NCBI GenBank assembly: GCA_009930415.1 | Contig: RZYG01000005.1 | Location: 1-35,857, forward strand | Reading direction: 5' to 3' | Length of the DNA stretch: 35,857 nt | DNA from: Spartobacteria bacterium | GTDB lineage: Bacteria; Verrucomicrobiota; Kiritimatiellia; CAIQIC01; Lenti-01 | Shown: positions 23,611 through 26,067 of the stretch, piece after piece | How positions within the stretch are numbered: position 1 is the first letter of the stretch | Layout of the letters: each line of letters starts with the position of its first letter | The notes under the pieces: model-generated | Database searches by the model: none | The model's input: the letters and a program-made list of their open reading frames with translations, nothing else | Told to the model about the DNA's origin: nothing | Program-made: the position numbers and the translations under genes

Positions 23611-26067
23611 TCATCGCCGCCGGGCCGCCCAGATGCGATAGCCGGGCTGCGGCCAGCGCGCGGGATCCCGCGTCGGCTCGATGCAGACCGTCCCATCCAA
23701 ATCCGTCCGCCACGCGCGCGCGCCTTGCGCAGCCAACCGCGCGAGCACCGCTTCGTCGGGATGGCGCTCGAACGCGTGCGGTCCCACGCTGAAAAGGACG
23801 TCGCGCGGCCGCACGGCCTGCAGCCAGGCGGCGGAGGTGGCTTCGGCGTCGCCCTGCCGCCCCGCCACCAGGACGGAGGCCGCCAAGGACCTTCCGGACG
23901 CCACCAATTGCTTTTCCACGGCGCGCCCGGCATCGCCGGCCAGCAGGACCGCGGTGCCTCCGCGCGCGACGCGCAGCACCAAAGAGGCGTCGTCGGCGCA
24001 CGCCATCTCGAGGCCGGCCGGCGGCCAGAACACTTCCCAGTACACGTCGCCCGGCCAATCGCCGGCATCGCCGGCGGTCAATTGGCGGATGGGCATTCCG
24101 GCGGCTTCGGCCCGGCGCAAGATCTCTTTCATGACCGGCGAAGGCCACCGCGTTGCGGGCACCCACAATTCCCGGATCGGCAACGCCGCCATCAAGTCCG
24201 GCGCGGCGCCGACGTGCCGGGCATCCGCATGCGACAAGACCAGCGCGTCCAACCGGTTGACGCCCTCGGCCCGCAACTCCCGCAGCGTGTCCGCCGCGGC
24301 GAACGCCGAGCCCGTATCCACCAGAATCCGCGCCGAACGGGCCTGCACCAGCGTGGCGCTCCCCGCGCCCACGTCCAGCGCGGCAATCCGGCAGCGCCGA
24401 ACCTCGCGGGCATGCCACGCCACCGCCAGCGCGGCCAGGATCCCCAACCCGGCCGGAAACGCGCCCCGGATGCGGCGCGCCATCGTCGTTGCGGCGGCCA
24501 GCACCGCGTACCAAACGACCACGCCTGCGGTCGGCGGCGCCCGCACGAACCAATGCCCGCCGGGGAATTCCGCGGCCCAGCCGATGCACCGCGCCAGACC
24601 GGCCGCCAACAGCGCCGCCGCGTGGTTGAACGTCGTCGCCAGCCACTCGGAAAGCGGCGCGCTCATCAGGCTGACGACGCCCGCCATCAGGATGAAAAAC
24701 GCCGCGGGAATCACCAGCAGGTTCATGCCGAGCGCGATCGGCGATACCAGATTGAAGAAATACGCCGTCAAGGGCGTCGTGCCGATCCAGGCCGAAACGG
24801 ATACCAGGCCGAAGCGCGTCGCGGCCAGACCGCCTTCCCGCAGCCAGCGCCCCGGGGGCTGTTCCTGTTCCGGCAATTGCCAGGTGTCGCGCCGAAACCA
24901 CCGCACGGCCGCGGCATCGAACAGCGGTTGGATCGCCAGCAGGCCGGCCACGGCCGTGAACGACAGCAAAAAGCCCAGATCGCCCAGTTGCCCCGGCGCC
25001 GCCAGCAGGATCGCGATGGCCGCCACGGCCAGACCCGAAACCGCATCGGGCCGGCGCCGGCAAAACGGTGCCGCCAGCATCAGGACGGCCATGATGCCGG
25101 CGCGGACCGCGCTGGTGGCCGCGCCGGTCGCGACCACGTAGATCGCCAGCAGCGGCGCCAGGAACAGGAACCAGCGCGTCAGGGGAATCCGCAGCGCCCG
25201 CAGCAATCCGGCGATCATCAGCGCCAGCATGCCCACGTGCGCGCCGGAGATCGCAAAGATATGCACCGTGCCGGTCGCGGCGAAATCGCGCCGCAGCGCG
25301 CGCGGCAAATCCTCGCGGTAGCCCAGCAGCAAGGCCTGCAGCACGCCGCGCTCTTCGGGCCAGTCTTCCAATCCGCGGCCCAGGATTTCCCGGCAGGTCC
25401 GCCGGCGCCCGAGGCACCACTCCACGAATGGATTTCCATGCCCGGCATCCAGGAAAAACATCCGGTCCGCATCCACCATCGCCTGGTTTTCCGGCAGCGT
25501 GAACAACCCTTTGCGCCGCGGCTGGGCCGGACACACCAGCCCGCGCAGGCGCCAGCGCTCGCCGTAGCGCGGCCGGCGGCCGGCGGGCAACGCCCCGCGC
25601 ACCGTCACGCGCAGGCGATCGTCGATCCGCTGCCACGTGCCGTCGCGGTTCAGACCTTCCACCTGGGCCACGAACGTCGCGCCGGCGGACCGGCCGGGCT
25701 GCGCCGCCTGCGGCACGGCGTCCTCCGACACCCGCACCACGACCTGCACGTATTCCATCGGGCGCGCCAGCGCCGCGGCCAGCGTCGCCGACCCGCCCCC
25801 GCCCGTCGCCAGCCGCGCATGCGCCGCCATCAACAGGAACGCCGCCGCCATCAAAGGCGCTACGGACCAACGGTGGCGCACCCAGACGAACAGCGGCAGC
25901 AGCAGCAGCGCGCCGGCGCCCCAGAACCACGCCGGCGAAACCGGCGCGCAGATGCCCGTCGCCGTCCCCGCCAGGATCGGCAACGCCACCCCCACCGCCG
26001 CCCGCCGGCGCGAGGCCCGCGCCGGCCGCCGCATCTCCCGCCATTCTTCTTCGAACCAGGTTTCCAC
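23611..26067 (-). CDS. comEC: ComEC/Rec2-like DNA internalisation protein with degenerate MBL domain
   Basis: 818 residues, normal length. ComEC forms the inner-membrane channel that takes up single-stranded DNA during natural transformation. Order: N-terminal helices (about 25-85), an OB-like soluble domain (105-205), the Competence domain with FAISGAHVGM (271-280) and many helices to about 550, then a C-terminal metallo-beta-lactamase-like domain from DVGAGSATLVQ (565). The metal motif expected as HxDxDH reads His613-Ala-Asp-Ala-Arg-His618. The later HHGS site reads Arg-Gln-Gly-Asp (737-740), while the GD at 711-712 remains. The nuclease-like domain is probably inactive. The start is GTG at 26067; an ATG at 26034 is an alternative. 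It has its own promoter. Confidence 0.9.
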   Translation of the reverse strand: METWFEEEWREMRRPARASRRRAAVGVALPILAGTATGICAPVSPAWFWGAGALLLLPLFVWVRHRWSVAPLMAAAFLLMAAHARLATGGGGSATLAAALARPMEYVQVVVRVSEDAVPQAAQPGRSAGATFVAQVEGLNRDGTWQRIDDRLRVTVRGALPAGRRPRYGERWRLRGLVCPAQPRRKGLFTLPENQAMVDADRMFFLDAGHGNPFVEWCLGRRRTCREILGRGLEDWPEERGVLQALLLGYREDLPRALRRDFAATGTVHIFAISGAHVGMLALMIAGLLRALRIPLTRWFLFLAPLLAIYVVATGAATSAVRAGIMAVLMLAAPFCRRRPDAVSGLAVAAIAILLAAPGQLGDLGFLLSFTAVAGLLAIQPLFDAAAVRWFRRDTWQLPEQEQPPGRWLREGGLAATRFGLVSVSAWIGTTPLTAYFFNLVSPIALGMNLLVIPAAFFILMAGVVSLMSAPLSEWLATTFNHAAALLAAGLARCIGWAAEFPGGHWFVRAPPTAGVVVWYAVLAAATTMARRIRGAFPAGLGILAALAVAWHAREVRRCRIAALDVGAGSATLVQARSARILVDTGSAFAAADTLRELRAEGVNRLDALVLSHADARHVGAAPDLMAALPIRELWVPATRWPSPVMKEILRRAEAAGMPIRQLTAGDAGDWPGDVYWEVFWPPAGLEMACADDASLVLRVARGGTAVLLAGDAGRAVEKQLVASGRSLAASVLVAGRQGDAEATSAAWLQAVRPRDVLFSVGPHAFERHPDEAVLARLAAQGARAWRTDLDGTVCIEPTRDPARWPQPGYRIWAARRR

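Follow-up and report, generated by a model that had tools for sequence, protein, structure and literature searches.

The comEC gene on a contig of an uncultured, Kiritimatiellae-type member of the Verrucomicrobiota raises the question of what a DNA-import channel does with a C-terminal metallo-beta-lactamase-fold (MBL) domain in which residues of the nuclease site have been replaced. The window, i.e., the whole stretch of DNA analysed, is this contig of 35,857 bases (G000:C223), part of a metagenome-assembled genome (MAG) of 3.10 Mb (G000). A first-pass annotation had described a ComEC with the motifs HADARH and RQGD in place of HxDxDH and HHGS, and this description was borne out by the open reading frame, the domain matches and the residue positions (Table 1). 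The start position of the gene agrees with that of aligned relatives.

Table 1 Features of the comEC gene; positions are those of the window
Feature	Residues (aa)	Position	Strand	Evidence or remark
comEC gene	818 aa	23611..26067	(-)	GTG start, stop included; TIGR00361 above cut-off
DUF4131 region including OB fold	45-178	25534..25935	(-)	Pfam PF13567, E=4.4e-11
Competence (membrane channel) domain	246-530	24478..25332	(-)	Pfam PF03772, E=4e-55
C-terminal MBL domain, predicted catalytically inactive	559-797	23677..24393	(-)	PF00753 (Lactamase_B), E=1.5e-10; Foldseek 9ic4
Motif II, HADARH	613-618	24214..24231	(-)	R617 (codon CGG) stands at the position of the general-base Asp (M. glycerini D602)
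Metal-bridging Asp, kept	D712	23932..23934	(-)	Alignment; equals M. glycerini D700
RQGD, where HHGS is expected	737-740	23848..23859	(-)	Alignment; M. glycerini H725-S728

The whole protein scores 208.4 bits against the TIGR00361 ComEC_Rec2 equivalog, above the curated cut-off of 190.05. The match to PF03772 is nearly full length (1-267 of 270), and the channel domain is intact, as had been claimed. By its domain content, the protein is a ComEC DNA-import channel of the orthodox three-domain type, with DUF4131, Competence and MBL domains, in the same OB (DUF4131)-Competence-MBL order as the active ComEC proteins of Moorella glycerini, M. thermoacetica and Bacillus subtilis. The MBL fold around the altered motifs also proved to be intact. 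The AlphaFold model has a mean pLDDT of 87.6, with values mostly of 88-96 (about 92) in the MBL blocks, and the best Foldseek match of the modelled MBL domain is the M. glycerini domain (9ic4; TM-score of 0.85 when normalised by target length, with an rmsd of 2.3). The sequence also contains the stretches DVGAGSATLVQ and LVDTG, as well as the late GD (D712).

Alignment to the solved M. glycerini domain equates its residues H598, D600, D602, H603, D700, H725, H726 and S728 with H613, D615, R617, H618, D712, R737, Q738 and D740, respectively. Four of the five residues that were mutated as Mn ligands in M. glycerini are kept (H613, D615, H618 and D712), whereas the general base D602 and H725, H726 and S728 are gone. 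Of the features of an active ComEC MBL nuclease, the fold and the bridging Asp are present, while HxDxDH with its general-base Asp and HHGS are not. The earlier statement that both metal-site motifs are lost thus holds for the equivalents of D602, H725 and S728 and fails for the four remaining ligands, which are invariant in 14 aligned proteins. As read from the alignment, the metal site is reduced by one ligand/general base and by the HHGS residues, without being erased.

In M. glycerini, D602 is the proposed general base and H725 was placed beside the substrate; the variants D602A, H598A, H603A and D700A were virtually inactive, and the activity of D600A was approximately fivefold lower (PMC12455585). 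Mutants of L. pneumophila at the equivalents of activity-reducing residues lose transformation, except for S662, which corresponds to M. glycerini S728 (PMC12455585). Because the equivalent D602A variant is virtually inactive and L. pneumophila mutants at equivalent residues are non-transforming, the nuclease chemistry of the window ComEC is very probably gone. The proposal of the first-pass annotation, a channel without the nuclease-type activity of ComEC, is well supported by these mutants and by the replacement of D602, H725 and S728.

A scan of genome contigs with an alignment as query identified named relatives, which are MAGs of Kiritimatiellae, Lentisphaerae and Verrucomicrobia; a scan with the single protein as query gave no matches. 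A check of the close relatives revealed none with intact HxDxDH/HHGS. The equivalent of D602 is absent from all 12 other family proteins, five of which come from the same genus, and all 13 family members are without Asp at this position. Because every family member checked shows this loss, it is beyond chance, and a sequencing or assembly error behind HADARH and RQGD, already argued against in the first-pass annotation, is ruled out. An Arg at the H725 position is found in ten of the 12 other proteins, including all five of the same genus. Members of the genus carry HxDA[R/Q]H as motif II and GRHGD at the second site, Q738 being peculiar to the window genome. The remaining family members have HADAAH, HADTAH, HSDAEH or HIDTEH as motif II. 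Among the relatives in the order, families f3 and f4 mostly carry HADAEH or HGDAEH together with GGHGA or GDHGA, and in f3 the position of D712 is occupied by Gly, the Asp being lost as well. In family f2, motif II is gone entirely.

In an extended survey, which covered 143 genomes from the class and 115 from the phylum, 57 ComEC-fused MBL domains were read, the motifs being sampled from MAGs. A complete H-D-D-H site with the additional Asp occurs in none of the 57. H598, D600 and H603 are kept together in 26 of them, none of which has D602, and only five have a His at the 725 position. Within the phylum, it is these degenerate-MBL ComECs that score highest against TIGR00361, so that an intact fused domain is hardly likely to have been overlooked in this sample. 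The motif script is able to detect a near-canonical site, since for an Ignavibacteria ComEC (L069) it returned ISHYHSDH/GD/NHGG. In the wider class, the MBL motifs degrade further, and the domain is missing in two lineages, the ComECs of which measure approximately 520-570 aa. In a quickly built tree, many forks of which are weak, these domain-less ComECs are nested inside degenerate-MBL lineages; inactivation therefore appears to have preceded deletion of the domain. Judged from these sequences, the inactivation is an old inherited change, common to family, order and class. In family f19 (L139-L145, L048), eight genomes encode a ComEC of approximately 640 aa in which the MBL domain stops after its first part, an apparent half-deleted state.

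The worsening of the motifs across the class, together with the absence of the domain from two lineages and its halving in f19, might suggest that the MBL domain is under relaxed selection and merely decaying toward loss, with no present function. Within the genus of the window, however, the domain is folded, is not eroding and is under purifying selection like the channel, as follows from the confident model, the TM-score, the invariant ligand columns and the dN/dS ratios (dN 0.26 and dS 1.03 for the MBL domain; 0.18 and 0.72 for the channel; both ratios approximately 0.25). Of 236 MBL columns, 28 are invariant in the 14 aligned proteins, and the four ligands are among these, whereas position 617 is not. 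As a full-length domain is, moreover, still present in most lineages with a degenerate site, simple decay is considered quite improbable. The presence of four of the five ligand positions among the invariant columns exceeds the chance expectation (hypergeometric P=7e-4), and D692 likewise does not vary within the family or in its nearest relative from the order. Retention of the ligands looks selected, which could point to an altered activity or one that needs a single metal. Mononuclear MBL enzymes exist, and a one-metal site formed by H613, D615, H618, D712 and perhaps D692 might hydrolyse DNA or another phosphodiester by a different chemistry. Against such altered catalysis, the general-base position varies freely in relatives (R, Q, A or E), R737 sits where an active-site His should be, D712 has been lost in f3, and D602A by itself renders the M. 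glycerini domain virtually inactive (PMC12455585). This alternative is rated as very unlikely.

The nuclease role might also have shifted to a second ComEC-family protein or to a separate enzyme acting in trans, which would be compatible with a dead domain in the window protein. The window genome does encode a second ComEC-family protein, of 1130 aa (G000:C188; L034:320-3709 (-)), the MBL remnant of which retains E602-H603, D700 and HHGT and lacks H598 and D600, a mirror image of the window ComEC. It has relatives in other genomes, and its model is poor (pLDDT 60). Without H598 and D600, this paralogue is probably inactive as well. A profile search of G000 and the family gave weak matches to ordinary MBL proteins and no stand-alone ComEC-type MBL protein with intact motifs, and a nuclease of the EndA/NucM type (PF01223) was absent from G000 and present in one of the ten genomes searched. 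Elsewhere in the phylum, stand-alone ComEC-like MBL proteins do occur (L170, G223:C37; L180, G199:C76) that have intact motifs, measure approximately 305 aa and begin with what resembles a signal peptide. They belong to another family (f41), in which the site of ComEC itself is degenerate or cannot be recognised, and are candidate exported nucleases working in trans. For the window organism, a transfer of the nuclease role is deemed unlikely. A composite active site, with site-1 residues from one paralogue and HHGT from the other, is without precedent and was set aside.

The reading that we hold to be probable is that of a ComEC channel with a pseudo-nuclease MBL domain, kept at the channel mouth as a non-catalytic scaffold or as a guide for the strand, in which inactivation is old and the domain was later dropped in two lineages of the class. 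Such a domain would be unable to hydrolyse the non-transforming strand and may have been retained since it shapes the channel mouth together with the OB fold. It could guide or separate the strands, possibly with the help of a metal that is residual or structural, and the Arg substitutions would bring positive charge to a groove already facing DNA. The other strand might be displaced during uptake driven by type IV pili and ComF, or be removed by another nuclease. Inactivation would date to the root of the class or before, followed by the discarding of the domain in the two lineages. DNA uptake in the window organism is plausible because PilT and DprA are encoded, both with scores exceeding the cut-off, together with a ComF-like protein. 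ComEA was not recognised in the family; G000 has a weak TIGR00426 match that falls short of the cut-off, and its HHH_3 match (L252) lies in a protein with a CxxxCxxC radical-SAM-like stretch, which is not ComEA.

Compared with the active ComECs of Moorella and B. subtilis, the window MBL domain superposes and keeps H598, D600, H603 and D700, but it has R, R, Q and D for D602, H725, H726 and S728. A degenerate ComEC MBL domain is not unprecedented: that of Streptococcus pneumoniae is present with substituted metal ligands (PMC8579336), and approximately half of the bacteria have a ComEC that lacks the MBL domain (C and DC profiles), the channel of which is presumed to work without a ComEC nuclease (PMC6299819). 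The substitutions in the pneumococcus (Asn, Glu, Asn) are conservative, whereas here the general base has become Arg, Gln, Ala or Glu, and EndA degrades the strand in S. pneumoniae, while no EndA-type gene was found in G000. Unlike the MBL-less ComECs, the window protein has a domain that is present, folded and constrained. A literature search, with most subscription journals outside its reach, yielded no account of an inactive ComEC MBL domain in Kiritimatiellae, and within the literature searched its class-wide inactivation appears to be undescribed so far. The fate of the non-transforming strand where the ComEC nuclease does not work was posed as an open question (PMC8579336). A folded and constrained domain without general base, with sister lineages in which deletion came later, makes the structural role separable from the catalytic one, and the class supplies natural test proteins for the two. 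The wider proposal, that the whole class imports DNA via a ComEC whose nuclease has become a strand separator that is positively charged and does not cut, with uptake and strand selection proceeding while ComEC leaves the other strand undegraded, is regarded as unlikely.

A larger ComEC-family protein (approximately 1100-1370 aa) accompanies the window-type ComEC in most family genomes and in many others of the class (also L035, L053, L188, L189, L147 and L146), and a third one of approximately 935 aa was seen in some genomes. One such protein per proteome had been reported for all proteomes but one (Pimentel and Zhang 2018). In G037 (L042; G037:C1:1407500-1412500), the ComEC frame is broken by three TAG codons and a second frame, of 310 aa, encodes the MBL part apart from it, which may represent a pseudogene, a split gene or a gene in which TAG is read as sense.
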